A stretch of 64,000 bases of DNA from positions 1-64,000 of the forward strand of contig CAKZLZ010000034.1 of the NCBI GenBank assembly GCA_937127435.1. The letters run 5' to 3'. This document shows positions 47,326-57,283 of the stretch, piece after piece; positions within the stretch are counted from its first letter, which is position 1; the number at the start of each line of letters is the position of its first letter. The position numbers and the translations under genes were made by a program. Source of the DNA: an uncultured Verrucomicrobiota bacterium (GTDB lineage Bacteria; Verrucomicrobiota; Kiritimatiellia; SS1-B-03-39; UBA6053). The notes below the pieces were generated by a model that saw only the letters and a program-made list of their open reading frames with translations, had not been told where the DNA came from and ran no database searches.

Positions 47326-48579
47326 ATGATTAAAAAAAGTGAAATTTTGGAAATGGGCGAAAAAGCCCAGAAAGCCTCCCTCGGATTGGCAAAACTGAGC
47401 TCCCGCAAAAAGAACAACATTTTGGAAGCCATGGCGGATGAGTTGGATGCCCGCCGCAAAGAAATTCAGGCCGCCAATCAAAAAGATCTGGTCGAAGGCA
47501 AAAAGAACGGCCTCAGTGCCGCCATGCTGGACCGGCTGGAGCTGACAGATGAACGCTTCAAATCCATGGTCAAAGGCATTCTGGATGTGATCGCGCTCAA
47601 AGATCCGGTCGGTGACATTATGAGCACTTGGGTTCGTCCCAACGGTTTGGAAATAAAAAAAGTCAGGGTGCCCATTGGCGTGATCGGCATTATTTTTGAA
47701 TCCCGTCCCAATGTGACCGTGGATGCGGCCGTGCTCTGCTTCAAATCTTCCAACGCCACCATTTTGCGGGGCGGCAAAGAAGCCATTCACAGCAACCGCG
47801 CTTTGGCCCTGGCCATTCAGGAAGGCGGCGAGAAAAAAGGACTTCCCCCCAACGCCATTCAGCTGGTGCAAACCACCGAACGCTCTGCGGTCAAAGAACT
47901 GGTACAGCTTGAAGGTCTGGTCGACTTGGTTATCCCTCGCGGAGGAGAAGGCCTCATCCGTGCGGTGGTGGAAGATGCCCGCGTTCCGGTCATCAAACAC
48001 TACAAGGGCATTTGCCATATCTATGTGGACAAAGATGCGAATTTACCTGCGGCCGTGGATATCGTGGACAACGCAAAAACCCAACGCCCCGGGGTTTGCA
48101 ATGCAGTGGAAACCGTTTTGGTTCACAAAGACATCTCAGAAGAATTTCTGCCCATGCTGGCCAACCGCTTGATTTCCAAAAAAGTGGAGATTCGCGGCGA
48201 CAACGCCACCTGCGCCCTGATTCCGGAAGCGACACCCGCCAAAGAAGAAGATTGGGGTGAAGAGTATCTGGATTTAATTTTATCCGTGAAAGTGGTGGAT
48301 ACCATTGATGATGCCATTTCACATATCGATCAATACGGATCCAAACACTCGGACGCGATTCTCAGTCAGTCAGAGCTCGCGCAGAAACAGTTCCTGCAGG
48401 AAGTAGACAGCTCCACGGTCTACGTGAATGCCAGCACCCGCTTCACCGACGGCAACGAATTCGGCCTGGGTGCGGAAATAGGCATCAGCACCGACAAACT
48501 GCACGCCCGCGGTCCCATGGGTCTCGAAGAGCTGACCACTTACAAATTCCACGTGCTGGGCACTGGTCAGATTCGATAA
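47326..48579 (+). CDS. proA: Gamma-glutamyl phosphate reductase
   Basis: 417 aa; PIGVIGIIFESRPNVTVDAAVLCFKSSNATILRGGKEA; STVYVNASTRFTDGNEFGLGAEIGISTDKLHARGPMGLEELTTYK. Confidence 0.97.
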   Translation: MIKKSEILEMGEKAQKASLGLAKLSSRKKNNILEAMADELDARRKEIQAANQKDLVEGKKNGLSAAMLDRLELTDERFKSMVKGILDVIALKDPVGDIMSTWVRPNGLEIKKVRVPIGVIGIIFESRPNVTVDAAVLCFKSSNATILRGGKEAIHSNRALALAIQEGGEKKGLPPNAIQLVQTTERSAVKELVQLEGLVDLVIPRGGEGLIRAVVEDARVPVIKHYKGICHIYVDKDANLPAAVDIVDNAKTQRPGVCNAVETVLVHKDISEEFLPMLANRLISKKVEIRGDNATCALIPEATPAKEEDWGEEYLDLILSVKVVDTIDDAISHIDQYGSKHSDAILSQSELAQKQFLQEVDSSTVYVNASTRFTDGNEFGLGAEIGISTDKLHARGPMGLEELTTYKFHVLGTGQIR

Positions 48580-48628: not shown

Positions 48629-48659
48629 GTTCGATATTCGGTTTCACTATCTTTGCCCC

Positions 48660-48813
48660 CTCGAAGCTTCGCTTCTTCGCCCCCAAAGCGGCAGCTTCAG
48701 TCGTCCCTCCTTGCGCGACCGCACTCCATAAAATCCGCTTATTTTGGAGTGCGCACGCGGAGTGAAGCATGAACGCAGCTTGCGCTTTGGGGGCGAAGAA
48801 GCGAAGCTTCGAG
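48660..48813. repeat. 31-bp perfect inverted repeat enclosing a second internal hairpin
   Basis: Arms CTCGAAGCTTCGCTTCTTCGCCCCCAAAGCG (48660-48690) and its exact reverse complement (48783-48813); internal CGCACTCCA...GGAGTGCG. Confidence 0.93.
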
Positions 48814-48822
48814 AGGGGAAAA

Positions 48823-49779
48823 TCATATCTCAAACCCAATACTGCCTTCCTCTGAACAACAGGGCAAAGGACACATCGGGCAGTACCAAAAACGTTGATA
48901 CCCGGCAGTGAAATGTAGAACACCCATCGCAGTATTCACCACCGGACGTCCCTCCCCTGCGAAAGAACCCTCTTCCTTCTGCCTTTGAACCCAATCCTGA
49001 AACACACTCGCGGGAGTCCTTCCGGCGGGACGGTGTTTGTCGCAAACCAAGAGCGCCGCCCGGGTCGCGATGTAGCTATAGACCGGATCCTCTCCGTAGA
49101 CTTCTGAGCGCTCCTGATTCCCCCAGCCGGGATATTGATCTCCCTTCACAAAATCATCCAAATGCCCGCCCATAGTCGGCGAGGTCAAATTCGTCATTTT
49201 TCCTGCTGTCCGCGCCTCACTTTGCCAAACCTTCAGCCTCCATCCGTCGGATGGATCTGAATGTTCAAACATCCACTGCAACGCCAATTCACAAGGCTGC
49301 CTCAATAAAATATTTTCGGTCATCAGATAGGCCTCTATCAACGCATAGGTCGCAATGGCATGACCATAAACGGGATCAGGTTCCGTCGAAGGAAAACTCC
49401 CGTCTTCCTCCTGGTTCTCCACAAGGAACCGAAGGGTTTTGGCTACGGTGGGGCCAAAGTCAGCAGAGGCCGGAGTTTCCCCGTGGGACAGAAAAGCCAA
49501 TAAGGCCAAGGCGGTTGCTTCTGTGCCAGGACGACGATCCTGCGCCTCCCCACTCATCGACCAGAAACCCTCTTCATGCTGATGGGCCTGTAGCCATCTC
49601 AACTCTTTTTCAGCTGCCGTAGGTTCATAGACTTCATCAGCGAAATCTATCTGATCCTCCTCTTCAGGAGGATGAGATCTTATCAAGAAAAAGCCCGCGG
49701 AAATCAGCACCACCAGTACAATAGGGATTTCAGGACGAAGGCGCAGGGAAGTGGATTTAGATTTTTTCATGACGATCAA
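48823..49779 (-). CDS. Prenyltransferase/squalene-cyclase-repeat (alpha/alpha toroid) protein, paralog 6
   Basis: 318 aa; TM anchor; ELRWLQAHQHEEGFWSM, LALLAFLSHGETPASADFGPTVAKTLRFLVENQEEDGSF; tail YCPMCPLPCCSEEGSIGFEI; start overlaps the upstream stop. Confidence 0.85.
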   Translation of the reverse strand: MIVMKKSKSTSLRLRPEIPIVLVVLISAGFFLIRSHPPEEEDQIDFADEVYEPTAAEKELRWLQAHQHEEGFWSMSGEAQDRRPGTEATALALLAFLSHGETPASADFGPTVAKTLRFLVENQEEDGSFPSTEPDPVYGHAIATYALIEAYLMTENILLRQPCELALQWMFEHSDPSDGWRLKVWQSEARTAGKMTNLTSPTMGGHLDDFVKGDQYPGWGNQERSEVYGEDPVYSYIATRAALLVCDKHRPAGRTPASVFQDWVQRQKEEGSFAGEGRPVVNTAMGVLHFTAGYQRFWYCPMCPLPCCSEEGSIGFEI

Positions 49780-51275
49780 ATCTCAAAAACCACGTCATCC
49801 TTGTTCTGCGTATTTGCAGGGATGGAGACAGGTTTGATTTCCTTCCCCTGCCCCACATTGTAACGGTAGCAGGTCATCAAACTCAAAGCTCCCAGCGTGG
49901 TATTAAACACCGGTCCCTGATGAATGCCTTTGTCGGTAAATCCGATCCAGCGTCCGTCTTCCTCCTGATTGCGTGCGAGCTCGGTCACCATGGCACTGAC
50001 AAATTTCTTGAATTGCCTCCCCTCAGGGTCTTCCTGAAAGAAAGCCTGCACGGTGTAATACCAAAACATAATTTCACCGCCATGTTCCGGATTCAGTTCG
50101 GCATTTCCCCATCGGGGCAACTGATCACTTTCACAAAACCGGTCGATAAATTTTATGCTCTCTCTCGCTTCGCGGCTTTTGCCTCTCCCGCTCAAAAACA
50201 ATCCCAAGGTCCCGGCGGATGAAATAATCCGGCGTGGAGCCTCCACCTTTTCGTTGGTTACGGTGTAGGTAAAACCCCGTCCGCCGCCCTCGGTTTTTTT
50301 AGAACCTAAAAGCATCCCGTCCATCGCCCATTGCAAATGTTGTTTTAATTTTTCATCCGCCACATCGGTCATGGAAACGGCCTTTAACGCCTGGACATGC
50401 CATGCCCCCAGCGACAGGTCGTTCCGATTTTCCCGTTTGTATTCATAATCAAATCCTCCGTTGGACATTTGTCCCTTCATGATCACGGTAACCCCACGTT
50501 CCAGCGGCGCACGCAACAAAGGATTTTCTGTCATGAGATATGCCTCCGCCATCGCGTAAGTCGCAATGGCGTGTCCATAAGCGGTGTGAGAGCCTGCGGG
50601 TTGAAAGACCCCGTTGGCATCCTGATGCTCAACCAGAAACCGGATGCCATTGGCGACAGTACGGCCGTACTTTTCTGAAGCCGGGGTTTCCCCGTGCGCC
50701 AGAAAAGTCAATAAGGCCAAACCGGTGTACCCCGCGTTGCTGCCTCCGCCATTGAGACTTCCTGTTTGCGTCCAGGATCCGTTTTCATGCTGATGCGCTT
50801 TTAACCAATCCAAGGCTTTAACGACACTGGGTTCCGAATAGGTGGCCACAGAAGGCGGCAGGTATTTCGCAACCGCTTTTTCACGCCCCCCTTTCCCCCG
50901 GTCTGTATAAATGCCCTCCAGTTTGATGTCAGAAACTGTGGTCACATATAAAGGCTTGGCCACCGGAGGCGGCGTGGCGGATTCCGGTCCTGGAAAATCC
51001 GGTGTCTGCGTGTATTGATCCGGCAGCATGCAAGTTGTGGTAAATGTATTCAGGCCCGTTTGCACCGGATCCTCAACTTTAAATTCAGGGGTTGGCTCAA
51101 AAATTTCTTTCGGAGGTTCATCATTAACGATTGATTTGAATATTTGCCCGGGAGGGGTCGGGGTTGGCTCGGTCCCCACCCAATGCAGGATGCCTAAAAA
51201 AAGCAGGAAGTTCAGAATGCAGGACAGTCCAAAGCTGGAGTGGTGGGCGATGCGGTTTGCAGTCGGGATGTTCAT
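49776..51275 (-). CDS. Prenyltransferase/squalene-cyclase-repeat protein, paralog 5
   Basis: 499 aa; N-terminal TM; ALDWLKAHQHENGSW, LLTFLAHGETPASEKYGRTVANGIRFLVEHQDANGVF; ends KDDVVFEI. Confidence 0.88.
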   Translation of the reverse strand: MNIPTANRIAHHSSFGLSCILNFLLFLGILHWVGTEPTPTPPGQIFKSIVNDEPPKEIFEPTPEFKVEDPVQTGLNTFTTTCMLPDQYTQTPDFPGPESATPPPVAKPLYVTTVSDIKLEGIYTDRGKGGREKAVAKYLPPSVATYSEPSVVKALDWLKAHQHENGSWTQTGSLNGGGSNAGYTGLALLTFLAHGETPASEKYGRTVANGIRFLVEHQDANGVFQPAGSHTAYGHAIATYAMAEAYLMTENPLLRAPLERGVTVIMKGQMSNGGFDYEYKRENRNDLSLGAWHVQALKAVSMTDVADEKLKQHLQWAMDGMLLGSKKTEGGGRGFTYTVTNEKVEAPRRIISSAGTLGLFLSGRGKSREARESIKFIDRFCESDQLPRWGNAELNPEHGGEIMFWYYTVQAFFQEDPEGRQFKKFVSAMVTELARNQEEDGRWIGFTDKGIHQGPVFNTTLGALSLMTCYRYNVGQGKEIKPVSIPANTQNKDDVVFEI

Positions 51276-51344
51276 ATTTTTCTCCTGGGGTTCAATCAGA
51301 AGAGAAGGTACGCGGCGCCCGGAATTTAGTTTAGATATATTTAC

Positions 51345-51382
51345 AAAAAAAGTGCCGGAAATTAAAAATTAATTTCCGGCAC
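51345..51382 (-). terminator. Rho-independent terminator after paralog 4
   Basis: Minus strand GTGCCGGAAATTAA-ttt-TTAATTTCCGGCAC then TTTTTTTG. Confidence 0.92.
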
Positions 51383-51404
51383 CAACAAGAAAGGTCTTTA
51401 GTTT

Positions 51405-52916
51405 TTAAATATCGAAGCCGACATCTTCTTCATCCTCTTCGGAAACCGGGGGTGCGACATCCACCTGCTGGATATTGTCCGCCTGGGTCGTGGGCAGATA
51501 ACGGTAATACACCATCAGTCCCAAAGCCCCCAAAGCCGTGTTCATGGTCTTTCCCATTTTTTTCCCGCCTTCAGAATAACAAAGCCAATGCCCGTCATCC
51601 GCCTGATTTTGAACCAGAGCTTTTACCAGCGTAGGCATGAAACGTTTAAAGTTCGATCCCTCGGGGTCTTCCTGGAAAAAGGCCTGCACCGCATAATACC
51701 AATAATAGATTTCTCCGCCGTGACCCGAGTGACCCTCTGCACCCCATAAGGGCAATTTATCTTTTTCAGTATATTGCGACATATACTCCACGGCTTGCTT
51801 GGCCTCCTTGCTCTTTCCGCGTCCTGAAAGATGCAGAGCCAGGGTACCGGCGGCACTGACGGTCTTCTGAGCACCCCCTACTTTATCGCTGGTCATCGAA
51901 TAGGTGAAATAGCGCCCTTTCCCGTCCACATCTTTGGAACCCTTGAGCATCCCGTCCATTGCAGACTCAAGATACTTTTTAGTATCCGGCCCGGTCCCTT
52001 TGGAAATGTAGGCAGCCTTCAATGCCTGTAACTGCCAGGAACTGATCGAAAGGTCATTCCGGGTTTCCCGTTTGTAATGATAATCATATCCGCCATTGGG
52101 CATCTGACCTTTGATAATGACATCCACCCCGCGCTGCAGCGGTTCTCTTAATAAAATATTATCGGTCATGGTGTAGGCTTCGGCCAAGGCATAGGTCGCC
52201 ATCGCATGTCCATAACCGGTATTTCCTCCCACCGGCTGAAAAAGTCCTTTTGCATCCTGATGCTCTACCAGGAAACGAATCCCTTTCGCCACCGTCGGAC
52301 CAAAATCAGCGGACGCCGGGGTTTCCCCATGCGCCAAAAATGCCAGCAGCGCCAACCCGGTGTAACCCGCATTCGCACCTCCCCCTCGGGTGGACCCGTC
52401 TTTGTTCCAGGAACCATTTTCATGCTGGTGGTCCCGCAACCACTCCAAAGCCTTCATGACCGCCGGCTCGGAAAATTTTTCCAAACCCTTTCCGTATTTG
52501 GCCGCCGCAGCCTGTCGGGCTTTCGGGGTACGTCCCACCAACAAACCGGTCATCACCACCGGACTGGAAACATCGGACATCAAATCAGAAAGACTGGTCA
52601 CATCCGTGTTGGTCACATCCGCCACTTCTTCGGTTTGTTGCTCAAAATCCGTTTCCATCGGGGTGTCCAAAGTGAAATCCACCAATTCGTTCAGTTCGTC
52701 CGGATCCACAACCTCTTCTGGTTCCAGCTCTTCTTCCAGATCTTCGATATCTTCCTGGGCAGCCGGATCAATGACCATCACCTTGGAGACATCCGGCTCC
52801 ATCCCTTCTGAAAACGTGATAAAGGTGACCAGGGCAAGTACCAGCAAGGCATTGATAATCACGGAGATGAGCACACTTGATGTGTGGGCGAGTTTTAATG
52901 ATTTTTGTACGTTCAT
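51405..52916 (-). CDS. Prenyltransferase/squalene-cyclase-repeat protein, paralog 4
   Basis: 503 aa; TM, acidic linker, ALEWLRDHQHENGSWN, AHGETPASADFGPTVAKGIRFLVEHQDAKGLF; ends EEDVGFDI. Confidence 0.9.
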   Translation of the reverse strand: MNVQKSLKLAHTSSVLISVIINALLVLALVTFITFSEGMEPDVSKVMVIDPAAQEDIEDLEEELEPEEVVDPDELNELVDFTLDTPMETDFEQQTEEVADVTNTDVTSLSDLMSDVSSPVVMTGLLVGRTPKARQAAAAKYGKGLEKFSEPAVMKALEWLRDHQHENGSWNKDGSTRGGGANAGYTGLALLAFLAHGETPASADFGPTVAKGIRFLVEHQDAKGLFQPVGGNTGYGHAMATYALAEAYTMTDNILLREPLQRGVDVIIKGQMPNGGYDYHYKRETRNDLSISSWQLQALKAAYISKGTGPDTKKYLESAMDGMLKGSKDVDGKGRYFTYSMTSDKVGGAQKTVSAAGTLALHLSGRGKSKEAKQAVEYMSQYTEKDKLPLWGAEGHSGHGGEIYYWYYAVQAFFQEDPEGSNFKRFMPTLVKALVQNQADDGHWLCYSEGGKKMGKTMNTALGALGLMVYYRYLPTTQADNIQQVDVAPPVSEEDEEDVGFDI

Positions 52917-52955
52917 GGCGTTTTTGGGGGTTATGAAGCCTATTAACAGAGGGAT

Positions 52956-52984
52956 GTTAGGGTATTCAGGAAAATATGTTTAGG
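52956..52984 (-). promoter_or_regulatory. Promoter-like motif CCTAAAC-N17-CTAAC upstream of paralog 4
   Basis: Minus strand CCTAAAC ATATTTTCCTGAATACC CTAAC; same motif and 17-bp spacing at two other paralogs. Confidence 0.5.
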
Positions 52985-53069
52985 AAAAAGATGATAAAAA
53001 GTTCGAAAACTTCAGCCCCTCTCTATTTCTTGAAAAGAAAACAGCCATCTCCTATCCGGAAATGGCCAT

Positions 53070-53092
53070 AAAACCCCCGAAAATCGGGGTTA
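53070..53092 (-). terminator. Rho-independent terminator after paralog 3
   Basis: Minus strand AACCCCGA-ttt-TCGGGGGTT followed by TTA. Confidence 0.7.
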
Positions 53093-53107
53093 GTTTAGAA
53101 GGCAGGA

Positions 53108-54637
53108 TCAAATATCAAAGCCCACATCCCCGTCCTCTTCCCCGGAACCCGGGTCAACAAGTGCATCCGCTTGTTGAATATTGTCCGCCTGGGTGGTGGG
53201 CAAATACCGATAATAAACCATAAGACCCAATGCACCCAGGGTTGTATTAAAGACCGGGCCCCGGGCTTTCCCTTTTACAGAATAACAATCCCAATGCCCG
53301 TCCGAGGCCTGATTTTGTGCCAGTGCTTTCACCATCGCCGCCATATAGCGGGTGAAATTCTTGCCATTGGGATCCTCCTGAAAGAAGGCCTGTACGGTAT
53401 AATACCAAAGCATGATTTCCCCTCCATGTTCATCCTTTGTCAGCGTTTCCATATTTCCCCAGCGGGGCAGGTGATCCGTATCGGCAAACTTCTCAATAAA
53501 CTTTATAGATTCCCGCGCCTCTTTAGATTTTGCCCGGCCGGCAAGATGGAGTCCCAAGGTTCCGGCGGAAGAGATGATCATGCGGGGACCGCGACTATCC
53601 AGCTTGCCCGCATTCGTAACCACATAATAAAAAGGCCGCTCCCCATTGTCATTTCTCTTAGAGCCTAAAAGCATCCCATCCATGGCTTTTTGGAAATATT
53701 TTTTGATTTCCGGATGGTCAGGCAGGGCAATCGACGACGCTTTGAGGGCCTGTACATGCCATGCACCCGCAGATATATCATTCCGGGTCTCGATTTTATA
53801 CTCATAATCATAGCCCCCGTTCGGCATTTGACCCTTCATAATGACATTCACCCCGCGTTCCAGAGGTTCACGCAACAGCATATTATCGGTCATGGTATAC
53901 GCTTCGGCAAGCGCATAGGTGGCCATCGCATGCCCATAAACTGTGTGATGCCCCACGGGCTGAAAAAGCCCCTTGGAATCCTGATTTTCCACCAGAAAAC
54001 GAATCCCTTTGGCAACCGCTTCCCCGAAATCAGCCGATGCAGGCGTCTCCCCATGCGCCAAAAAAGCCAACAAGGCCAAACCCGTATACCCGGCACTGCT
54101 TCCCCCGGAAGCCGTCCCCTTTTCATTCCAGGATCCATTGCTTTGCTGATGATCCCGTAACCATTCCAAGGATTTTAATACCGCCGGCTCTGAATATTTT
54201 TCCAACCCTCTTCCGTATTTGGCGGCGGCCGCCTGACGGGCTTTCGGAGTGCGCCCCACCAACAGACCGGTCATCACCACCGGACTGGAGACATCGGACA
54301 TCAGATCAGAAAGACTGGTCATATCCGTATTGCTCACGTCTGCCACTTCCTCCGGCTGTTGCTCGAAATCAGTTTCCATCGGGGTATCTATCGTAAAATC
54401 CACCAACTCATTCAGTTCGTCCGGATCCACAACCTCTTCCGGCTCCAACTCTTCTTCCAGATCGTCGATATCTTCCTGGGTAGCCGGATCAATCACCATG
54501 ACCTTGGAGACATCCGGCTCCATTCCCTCCGAAAAAGTGATAAAGGTGACCAAAGCCAGCACCAGCAAGGCATTGATAATCACGGAGATGAGCACACTGG
54601 AGGTGTGTGCGAGTTTTATAGATTTTTGTACATTCAT
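53108..54637 (-). CDS. Prenyltransferase/squalene-cyclase-repeat protein, paralog 3
   Basis: Start MNVQKSIKLAHTSSVLISVIINALL (54637) preferred over listed 54667; SLEWLRDHQQSNGSWN, AHGETPASADFGEAVAKGIRFLVENQDSKGLF; ends DGDVGFDI. Confidence 0.9.
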   Translation of the reverse strand: MNVQKSIKLAHTSSVLISVIINALLVLALVTFITFSEGMEPDVSKVMVIDPATQEDIDDLEEELEPEEVVDPDELNELVDFTIDTPMETDFEQQPEEVADVSNTDMTSLSDLMSDVSSPVVMTGLLVGRTPKARQAAAAKYGRGLEKYSEPAVLKSLEWLRDHQQSNGSWNEKGTASGGSSAGYTGLALLAFLAHGETPASADFGEAVAKGIRFLVENQDSKGLFQPVGHHTVYGHAMATYALAEAYTMTDNMLLREPLERGVNVIMKGQMPNGGYDYEYKIETRNDISAGAWHVQALKASSIALPDHPEIKKYFQKAMDGMLLGSKRNDNGERPFYYVVTNAGKLDSRGPRMIISSAGTLGLHLAGRAKSKEARESIKFIEKFADTDHLPRWGNMETLTKDEHGGEIMLWYYTVQAFFQEDPNGKNFTRYMAAMVKALAQNQASDGHWDCYSVKGKARGPVFNTTLGALGLMVYYRYLPTTQADNIQQADALVDPGSGEEDGDVGFDI

Positions 54638-54673
54638 GGTCTGATAAGTTTCCTGATTCTTGAACAACCGGAC

Positions 54674-54702
54674 CTTAGTACTTTGAAAGGATAATGTTTA
54701 GG
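54674..54702 (-). promoter_or_regulatory. Promoter-like motif CCTAAAC-N17-CTAAG upstream of paralog 3
   Basis: Minus strand CCTAAAC ATTATCCTTTCAAAGTA CTAAG, about 37 bp upstream of the chosen start. Confidence 0.5.
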
Positions 54703-54735
54703 GAAAAGAGAAAGAATTGTTTCAATTCATTATTT

Positions 54736-55926
54736 TCATCGAAGGTAGGGGTAATACACCATCAACGTCATGGCTCCCAATGCGGTATTTACCACGGACC
54801 CCAAACGCTTCCCATTCTCCGCAAACCCGTCCCAATGCCCGTCATCCGCTTGAGTTTCCTCCAAGATTTCCACCCATGCGGACTTAAAGCGACTGAAATT
54901 TTCCCCTTCGGGATTTTGCTGAAAGAAGGCGTGCACCGCAACATATCCAAAAAGTATTTCTTCCCGGGGCTCCGCTTTGATCTTCAAATTTTCCCGTGAG
55001 GGCAAAGTATCCGGCTGGGTAACTTTTTCTAAAAATGTAATGGATTCACGGGCCGCTTCTGATTCAGCGCGTCCGCTAAGATGGAGAGCGAGTGCCTGGA
55101 CAGCCCTGAGGGTTTTATTCGTATCGCCATTCGGAGACAGTGCGGAGCGAAGAAGCAACTCGTCCACGGCCAGTTGCAACAACTTTTCAACTTCCAAATC
55201 TGCACGCAGGGTCAACGATGCTGATTCTAAGGCCAGAACCTGCCAAATTCCGGTCAGGAGATTCTCTGCATTTTCCCCCTCCGCTTCGACATCGAATACT
55301 CCCGGATCCGTCAGTTGTATTTTCATTACGTTCACCCCGCGTTCTAAAGGCTCCCGCAGCAGAATATTGTCGGTCACTTCGTAGGCAGCCGCCAACGCAT
55401 AGGTGGCGATGGCCTGTCCATTCGCGCTGTAAGCGCCCCTCGGCCGGAAAAATCCTTTTTTATCCTGATGTTCAACCAGAAAACGAAGCCCTTTCGCGAC
55501 CGTGGGGCCGGAATCAGAAGAGGACGGCGTATCCCCATTGGCCAAAAACGCGAGCAGAGCCAATCCTGTACAGGCCACATTCCCCTCTCCCTCGGGCGTT
55601 CCCAAAGCATTCCAGGATCCGTCTTTCCGTTGATGCTCCTTTAACCAACTCAGGGCTTTCGGCACGGCGGGTTCTGCAAATTGCGCATGGTAAGCTGACC
55701 AATCAAAGGAAAGTGGCGTCATTCCTCCGGAAGGGATCACGACAACCGCCCCCTCGTCTTCATTCAAATGTTCAATTTCTTCCTGCGCCACCGGGGTGAT
55801 CACCATCACAGAGGAGGAATCATCGGTGCCCGGTCCTTCAGAGAAGACATGCAAGGGCAGCAAGGCCAACAGGATCCATAGGGACCGGAATTTGAGGACG
55901 GTACAAAGAGGATTTTCAATTTTCAT
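54736..55926 (-). CDS. Prenyltransferase/squalene-cyclase-repeat protein, paralog 2 (lacks acidic C-terminal tail)
   Basis: 396 aa; signal peptide; ALSWLKEHQRKDGSWNALGTPEGEGNVACTGLALLAFLANGDTPSSSDSGPTVAKGLRFLVEHQDKKGFF; ends LMVYYPYLR. Confidence 0.88.
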   Translation of the reverse strand: MKIENPLCTVLKFRSLWILLALLPLHVFSEGPGTDDSSSVMVITPVAQEEIEHLNEDEGAVVVIPSGGMTPLSFDWSAYHAQFAEPAVPKALSWLKEHQRKDGSWNALGTPEGEGNVACTGLALLAFLANGDTPSSSDSGPTVAKGLRFLVEHQDKKGFFRPRGAYSANGQAIATYALAAAYEVTDNILLREPLERGVNVMKIQLTDPGVFDVEAEGENAENLLTGIWQVLALESASLTLRADLEVEKLLQLAVDELLLRSALSPNGDTNKTLRAVQALALHLSGRAESEAARESITFLEKVTQPDTLPSRENLKIKAEPREEILFGYVAVHAFFQQNPEGENFSRFKSAWVEILEETQADDGHWDGFAENGKRLGSVVNTALGAMTLMVYYPYLR

Positions 55927-55963
55927 GGTTTTTTGAAGGTCCGGATTTCAGACCAAAAGAAAC

Positions 55964-55992
55964 CTTAGAGCTTTAGAAGAATGAAGTTTAGG
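55964..55992 (-). promoter_or_regulatory. Promoter-like motif CCTAAAC-N17-CTAAG upstream of paralog 2
   Basis: Minus strand CCTAAAC TTCATTCTTCTAAAGCT CTAAG. Confidence 0.5.
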
Positions 55993-56044
55993 AAAAAGAA
56001 CATCAAAGGGAGACTTTAATGAAAACACCCGTTCCACTGGAGAT

Positions 56045-57283
56045 TTAAAAATCAAATTCGACACCTTCCTCTTCTTCGACCTCATCCGCTTCCTGATCGA
56101 ATTCACCGGGCACGGGAATATACACATAGTTTACATGATGAAACACGTAAAAAACCATCAGAGACATGGATGCGAGAGAGGTGTTCACCACCGGACCCAA
56201 GCGCTTCCCTTCCTCCGTATAGCCGTTCCAATGTCCATCTTCCGCCTGATTTTGAACCAGGGCTTTCACCAATGCCGGCATAAAGCGCCCGAAGTTGTCC
56301 CCGGCGGGATCTTCACAAAAAAATGCATTCACAGCCAAATACCAAAACAAAATCCCACCTCCCGGTTCCGCATCCACCTTGGAATTCCCCCACCGGGGCA
56401 CCGTATCCGGCAGGGTATATTTTCCCAAAAACTGTATCGCCTCTCGAAGCTCTTCGGAATTCATGCGTCTTGCGAGATGGAGCGCAAAGGCCTCCGCGGC
56501 CACAGTTGTTTTATTTACCTCTTGCTTCCCGGATCGTAGGAGCATCTCATCCATAGCCAATTGCACGAGTTTTCCCACTTCCGGATCCCCGCGGAACACC
56601 CAGGAAGCCGATGACAGGGCCTGCACCTGCCAAGCCCCGCTCAAAGTCCCCCTTTTCTCTTCCGGATTACCCATTTGTAAACGCATCACCTCGATCCCGC
56701 GTTTCAATGATTCGCGTAACACAGGATTTTCAGTCATAATAAAGGCCTCCGCCAAGGCATAGCTGGCGATGGCCTGTCCAGTGACGGGGTCAGCATCCAC
56801 CGGCCGGAAGACACCCTGTTCATCCTGTTGCGCCACAAGATATTGAAGTGCCTTGCTCACCGTTGCACCGTATTCCGCCGAAGCTGGCGTTTCTCCGTGG
56901 CCTATAAATGCAAGTAAAGCCAGACTGGTACAGATCACATTCCCCTCTCCCTCCGGAGTTCCCTCTACATTCCAGGATCCGTCTTTTTGTTGATGCGTCT
57001 TTAACCATTTCAGGGCTTTCGAAACTACCGGTTCCGAGAATTTTTCCACCCCGCCACCGTATTGTGCCTCCGCCGCCTGGCGGGATTCCGGCGTGCGTCC
57101 CTTAAACAGGCCCATCAGCACCGGACTGGAAACCTCAGGCATTAAATCATCCAATTCATCCCGGGCCGCTTCTTCAGCCCGGCCGGGACCGATCAAAAAG
57201 CACAACAGACAGACGCCCCTCAAAAGAACAGAATTGAAGGACAGGGAAATTCTCACACCTTTTAATGCCTTTTCTACTTTCAT
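56045..57283 (-). CDS. Prenyltransferase/squalene-cyclase-repeat protein, paralog 1
   Basis: 412 aa; LFKGRTPESRQAAEAQYGGGVEKFSEPVVSKALKWLKTHQQKDGSWN, IGHGETPASAEYGATVSKALQYLVAQQDEQGVF; ends EEEGVEFDF. Confidence 0.88.
   Translation of the reverse strand: MKVEKALKGVRISLSFNSVLLRGVCLLCFLIGPGRAEEAARDELDDLMPEVSSPVLMGLFKGRTPESRQAAEAQYGGGVEKFSEPVVSKALKWLKTHQQKDGSWNVEGTPEGEGNVICTSLALLAFIGHGETPASAEYGATVSKALQYLVAQQDEQGVFRPVDADPVTGQAIASYALAEAFIMTENPVLRESLKRGIEVMRLQMGNPEEKRGTLSGAWQVQALSSASWVFRGDPEVGKLVQLAMDEMLLRSGKQEVNKTTVAAEAFALHLARRMNSEELREAIQFLGKYTLPDTVPRWGNSKVDAEPGGGILFWYLAVNAFFCEDPAGDNFGRFMPALVKALVQNQAEDGHWNGYTEEGKRLGPVVNTSLASMSLMVFYVFHHVNYVYIPVPGEFDQEADEVEEEEGVEFDF

Follow-up and report, generated by a model that had tools for sequence, protein, structure and literature searches.

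Six consecutive open reading frames (ORFs) coding for paralogous proteins are present on the minus strand at positions 48823-57283 of the window, by which we mean the whole stretch of DNA analysed here, the first 64,000 nucleotides of contig CAKZLZ010000034.1 from an uncultured Verrucomicrobiota bacterium. An initial annotation, made from the sequence alone, described these ORFs as a tandem array of paralogues, and they are indeed homologous: the five other proteins are 75, 53, 35, 49 and 50% identical to that of gene 3, aligned along their length. Its placing of the organism with the Opitutae was mistaken, as this is a member of the Kiritimatiellota. There is no other sizeable gene on the minus strand between the six ORFs, which are flanked by proA (plus strand, ending at 48579) and by a succinate dehydrogenase (sdh) operon (plus strand, from 57421), both named by eye. 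Three such genes are present at the same proA-sdh position in the closed sister genome CP120722.1, and the array is therefore no assembly artefact. A seventh full-length copy lies dispersed from the array on contig 156 (C156; C-numbers denote contigs of this genome and G-numbers the genomes of relatives). In the AlphaFold model of gene 4 a transmembrane (TM) helix (residues 2-38) is followed by a disordered region (38-125), an alpha/alpha toroid (131-472, with a predicted local distance difference test score of ~95) and a disordered tail; we refer to the part before the toroid as the stem and to the toroid as the head. Numbered in transcription order, the genes are:

56045-57283, minus strand: gene 1, 412 amino acids (aa); signal-peptide-like N-terminus, stem lost, several family-invariant toroid residues changed, C-terminal tail GVEFDF retained.
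54736-55926, minus strand: gene 2, 396 aa; N-terminus hydrophobic but shortened, SVMVITP retained as a D-box-like strand, loss of conserved toroid residues such as E246 (here A), C-terminal tail absent.
53108-54637, minus strand: gene 3, 509 aa, ATG start; full transducer architecture, TM helix with S-x3-N, tail GDVGFDI.
51405-52916, minus strand: gene 4, 503 aa; full transducer architecture.
49776-51275, minus strand: gene 5, 499 aa; full architecture on a distinct stem, which retains S-x3-N and has a weak D-box; tail DDVVFEI.
48823-49770 (or from a TTG start at 49779), minus strand: gene 6, 315 aa; start abuts or overlaps gene 5, a different type of TM anchor that lacks the S-x3-H/N motif, stem absent, toroid degenerate, tail GSIGFEI retained.

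Inspection by eye bears out the annotated TM segment or signal peptide in all six proteins, with a TM anchor in genes 3-6 (that of gene 6 being the divergent one) and a signal-peptide-like segment in genes 1 and 2. The sequence motifs reported as common to all six are best kept in genes 3-5 and have decayed in genes 1, 2 and 6. Their description as alpha/alpha-toroid envelope proteins agrees with partial matches to Pfam SQHop_cyclase_C, which cover a single stretch of 75-90 residues and exceed the gathering cut-off in five of the six, as well as with the gene 4 model and with Foldseek, which returns alpha/alpha barrels (GH76, sugar epimerases and the squalene-hopene cyclase 8pak) at TMt ~0.65 (0.64 for 8pak) and 9-18% identity. 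The gene 6 model also contains a toroid-like helical domain, at lower confidence in its C-terminal half. A vWA head is found in none of the array proteins, either by Pfam or in the AlphaFold model. The TED of complement and alpha-2-macroglobulin likewise has an alpha/alpha toroid and gives a weak Pfam match below the cut-off; the array proteins differ from it in having no CGEQ thioester motif, and this identity was ruled out.

Homologues are widespread. Among 58 relatives, matches are present in 51 genomes, mostly full-length and including the N-terminal helix, and they are found in 146 of 289 genomes sampled from the GTDB phylum. Named matches identify the genus of the present organism as that of Kiritimatiellota bacteria B12222 and B1221, close relatives with assembled genomes. 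Outside its own family the toroid gene recurs in an operon in which genes for a ~950-aa TPR/YfiO-like protein and a 265-aa TPR protein are followed by MotA_ExbB, one to three ExbD genes (MotA_ExbB and ExbD both verified by Pfam) and the toroid gene, sometimes with mutL next. ExbD is encoded upstream on the same strand for 72 of 118 distinct toroid proteins, within 700 bp for 63 of them, the remainder being mostly second copies; the full order TPR-TPR-ExbB-ExbD-toroid is seen for 62 of the 118, and the median gap between exbD and the toroid gene is 35 bp. This position behind ExbD is that of tonB or tolA. The array proteins are homologous to the operon-linked ones over their full length, helix and tail included, at 30-35% identity.

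The motor-linked proteins also resemble TonB and TolA in their N-terminal half. Their first helix contains S-x3-H in 52 of 72 proteins, and this is part of the SHLS motif through which TonB and TolA bind their motors (PMC12204202). The D-box, a pattern defined for TonB by Loll et al. (PMC10907165), was sought in its strict form within the 40 residues after the helix and is present in 39 of the 72 proteins (for example IEVTVVEP), against 4.7 expected from shuffled segments; beyond the D-box region is an acidic disordered stem. No Pfam match to the TonB/TolA C-terminal domain (PF03544/PF13103) is seen in the six array proteins. As the head is a toroid, we regard these proteins as TonB/TolA-like in action and file them as neither. 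The corresponding segments of gene 4 are:

52851-52865, minus strand: residues 18-22, SVIIN, at the position of the TonB/TolA S-x3-H motor-binding motif, with His replaced by Asn.
52767-52790, minus strand: residues 43-50, VSKVMVID, a degenerate D-box-like strand followed by proline.
51408-51428, minus strand: C-terminal tail EDVGFDI, the family-wide C-terminal strand motif.

The C-terminal strand has the consensus D-D-[VI]-x-[IV]-[EQ]-[IV]-[IL]-COOH; its core occurs in 63 of 71 motor-linked proteins, with 5.5 expected, and in the family of the present organism the strand reads EDVGFDI or similar. From its sequence the strand resembles a second D-box, for which ExbD, a TPR protein or the target of the head are possible partners.

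A separation of motor and transducer genes is seen in its own family. The genome carrying the array retains the orthologous SOD-TPR-TPR-ExbB-ExbD-ExbD-ExbD operon on contigs C96 and C5, and no toroid gene lies behind it. The two contigs overlap by 20 nt, which, together with the sister genomes, excludes a gene merely hidden by a contig end; the toroid gene is also missing behind this operon in G001, G002, G004, G005, G006, G008 and G009. In G011, from another family of the same order, it is still directly behind ExbD, and the transducer therefore left the operon and multiplied within the family. ExbB of the orphan operon is 98% identical between sister genomes. Beside sdh, sister genomes contain two, three or four copies (one of the four being a fragment), so that the annotated six-fold expansion is real and arose stepwise within the genus. 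Three-gene arrays without motor genes are also present in G216 and G081, which belong to two other families, and these are of independent origin. Independent three-gene toroid arrays from other families of the phylum, with no motor genes nearby, are seen at L251:9771-15023 and L253:6676-11610; the L253 copies lack the C-terminal strand tail.

Stems and heads differ in how far they have diverged. In seven tandem pairs from five families (genes 3 and 4, G002 a/b, L062 a/b, L081 a/b, L149 a/b, L251 a/b and L253 b/c) the stems are 86-100% identical as proteins, with synonymous divergence (dS) of 0.03-0.64, and the toroids are 49-88% identical with dS of 0.57-3.1; the drop in identity falls at or near the stem/toroid border. 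In the array the segments concerned are:

54182-54637, minus strand: stem of gene 3 (residues ~1-152), homogenised with that of gene 4; border approximate.
52461-52916, minus strand: stem of gene 4 (residues ~1-152), homogenised with that of gene 3; border approximate.

These two stems are 94% alike and only 76-80% alike to their G002 counterparts, and homogenisation must therefore have occurred within each genome. No such split is evident between orthologues (gene 4 and G004, dS 1.29 and 1.40 for the two halves) or with the dispersed paralogue (gene 4 and C156, 54% and 54% identity). Six other tandem comparisons show the reverse, with stems more diverged than heads, and the pattern is thus recurrent and not universal. 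Gene conversion confined to the stem would be the simplest mechanism. The rapid diversification suggested in the initial annotation, taken as an effect of positive selection, is unsupported for genes 4 and 5; homogenised stems are the better explanation of the contrast because dS itself differs between the halves.

The six genes appear to have met different fates. Across the family 51 positions are at least 93% conserved. All of them are intact in genes 3 and 4; three are changed in gene 5 and several in genes 1, 2 and 6. Compared with their G004 orthologues, the ratio of nonsynonymous to synonymous divergence (dN/dS) is 0.04 for gene 4 and 0.10 for gene 5, and in comparisons with genes 1, 2 and 6 it is 0.2-0.3. 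Judged by these ratios, genes 4 and 5 are under purifying selection. Genes 3-5 look intact, and genes 1, 2 and 6 are probably derived or decaying.

A likely interpretation is that the toroid proteins are envelope force transducers of the TonB/TolA type energised by the proton-motive force, in which a toroid replaces the usual C-terminal domain, and that genes 3-5 encode working examples. Homology, operon context, motifs, predicted fold, the orphan operon and the stem/head split are what the analysis shows, whereas motor coupling, force, a target of the head and the sharing of one motor by several heads are inferred. By analogy with TonB and TolA, the N-terminal helix would dock on the ExbB pentamer, the D-box strand just after it would be caught by the ExbD dimer, and proton flow would pull or wind the stem, which would span part of the periplasm; the toroid head would grip a periplasmic or outer-membrane target and pass the pull to a bound partner. 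A plausible scenario is that one or two toroid genes behind a TPR-TPR-ExbB-ExbD-ExbD operon represent the ancestral state, from which the transducers of its own family departed, leaving the motor genes in place and multiplying beside sdh. Recombination between neighbours would then keep the gene 3 and gene 4 stems alike and their heads different, and because of this likeness and difference one motor probably drives several heads. The broader proposal, that a single ExbB-ExbD motor serves a repertoire of toroid heads on a common stem, with arrays holding the heads, recombination keeping the stem compatible with the motor and heads diverging for different targets, is offered more tentatively; stem conversion may have been selected for such compatibility. 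If true, the system would be modular, with several heads transmitting force across the envelope.

Several observations weigh against the force-transducer interpretation. ExbB and ExbD are absent at the array itself, and the genome holds other ExbB/ExbD pairs, a TonB and a Tol-Pal locus, so that the identity of the array's motor is not certain. About a quarter of the motor-linked members do not have the His (A-x3-P and other types), genes 3-5 have S-x3-N in place of S-x3-H, and genes 1, 2 and 6 are without the motif. Asn is also found in two motor-linked homologues, G028 and G040, and S-x3-N alone does not therefore exclude coupling. The D-box of genes 3-5 is only degenerate (VSKVMVIDP), and the stem/head split could reflect conversion without functional meaning. 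Together with the loss of the stem or of core residues from genes 1, 2 and 6, the missing motor gene, the Asn and the weak D-box lend some weight to an alternative in which the copies within the genus became uncoupled after leaving the operon and are now structural envelope proteins or decaying. We consider this unlikely, since nearly every highly conserved residue is kept in genes 3-5, strong purifying selection acts on genes 4 and 5, and the motor operon is retained with its closely conserved ExbB. The scaffold or carbohydrate-binding role first suggested for the array misses the TonB/TolA-like N-terminal half and the ExbB-ExbD operon found elsewhere in the class.

Membrane-tethered enzymes, with a polysaccharide lyase- or glycosidase-like toroid and a motor link that only anchors or regulates, are less probable still. 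GH76 mannanases and sugar epimerases are the top fold matches, E246 is invariant (107 of 107), and D288 and many aromatics are conserved, but there are few other conserved acids and the fold matches are of low identity. A full-length Pec_lyase (PL10) match is seen in none of the six, the weak partial matches extending over ~40 residues and barely passing the cut-off in one, and for an enzyme free in the periplasm a TonB-like stem and a D-box would be superfluous. Tandem squalene-hopene-type terpene cyclases are very improbable, and were already doubted in the initial annotation: although SQHop_cyclase_C is the best Pfam family and 8pak a structural match, only one repeat is matched in what is a single toroid, the topology is periplasmic, NCBIfam cyclase models score 14-44 bits against cut-offs of 322-851 with no array protein over the cut-off, and the identity was ruled out by the lack of DxDD, which no array protein contains and only 5 of 118 relatives have.

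In terms of known systems, the force-transducer interpretation places the toroid family close to TonB and TolA, with which most of its motor-linked members share the S-x3-H (SHLS) helix and many the D-box just after it, besides a disordered linker and ExbB-ExbD partner genes, and from which it differs in the toroid C-terminal domain, the extra strand tail, the two TPR genes in the operon and, in the array copies, S-x3-N. The squalene-hopene cyclase/prenyltransferase superfamily has the fold and the QW-like repeat L-x-W-L-x3-Q-x3-G-S-W in common with these proteins, which are set apart by the single toroid, the missing DxDD and the sub-threshold NCBIfam scores. The closest known system is that of the vWA-headed force transducers of the Planctomycetota-Verrucomicrobiota-Chlamydiota (PVC) and other bacteria (Williams-Jones et al. 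2025, PMC12204202). Both kinds have a TM helix with the SHLS motif (among the toroid proteins, in most motor-linked members), a disordered region with a motor box and a globular head unrelated to the TonB/TolA domain, which is a vWA fold there and an alpha/alpha toroid here; the upstream set of a TPR gene, a tolQ-like gene and a tolR-like pair is matched by the toroid family operon, though not at the array. The words 'toroid' and 'prenyltransferase' do not appear in that article, and the parts of it consulted describe neither tandem arrays nor stem homogenisation. No description of toroid-headed transducers was found in the open-access literature, and as far as our searches reach such a head is undescribed.

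Proteins labelled 'prenyltransferase/squalene oxidase repeat' in Kiritimatiellota and related bacteria would thereby acquire a specific function that can be tested, that of the head in an envelope machine driven by protons, and the toroid would be a second non-TonB head fold, after vWA, for the TolA/TonB principle. The array also provides an example of a motor operon separated from its transducers, and a natural series of stems and heads in which motor coupling and target recognition are separable for study.

A YfbK-type vWA protein is encoded in the same genome (L017:5790-8138) behind an extracytoplasmic function (ECF) sigma factor, with an anti-sigma-like N-terminus and a D-box-like YQIQIIEP after its TM helix. 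It shares the pre-toroid linker SLSxLMSxVSSPVVM with the array (31 residues, 52% identity, E 0.003), and this linker and the D-box-like strand link the vWA and toroid kinds. The protein encoded after an ECF sigma factor at L016:1839-3460 combines an anti-sigma-like N-terminus with one TM helix and a small toroid domain. A 965-aa protein at L109:2913-6900 carries a CBM9-like domain besides its TonB-like helix (SVILH), with ExbB and ExbD directly after, and is possibly another kind of transducer head; a 410-aa protein at L112:4724-5956 with a TonB-like N-terminus (VLLHVIF) adjoins an ExbB/ExbD pair and has no Pfam head domain over the cut-off.

Candidate transcription signals within the array are:

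53075-53089, minus strand: terminator-like hairpin 3' of gene 3, CCCCGATTTTCGGGG GTTTTA.
51351-51383, minus strand: strong terminator-like hairpin 3' of gene 4, 15 pairs with a T-rich tail.
55986-55991, minus strand: CTAAAC box upstream of gene 2.
54696-54701, minus strand: CTAAAC box upstream of gene 3.
52978-52983, minus strand: CTAAAC box upstream of gene 4.
51329-51334, minus strand: CTAAAC box upstream of gene 5.

The CTAAAC box, a putative promoter element, lies 59-67 bp upstream of genes 2-5 and is also near most copies within the genus. Hairpins in the array region number 16 compared with a mean of 12.3 in shuffled sequence, a slight excess only. The hairpins and boxes suggest separate transcripts, and a single long operon is doubtful, since genes 3 and 4 are each followed by a terminator-like hairpin and most genes are preceded by a box. 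Between gene 6 and proA (48652-48821) is a near-palindrome of 170 bp, which matches its own reverse complement at 78% identity and resembles a repetitive extragenic palindrome (REP) or miniature inverted-repeat transposable element (MITE); partial copies are present on contigs C161, C59, C14 and C39 of the same genome.

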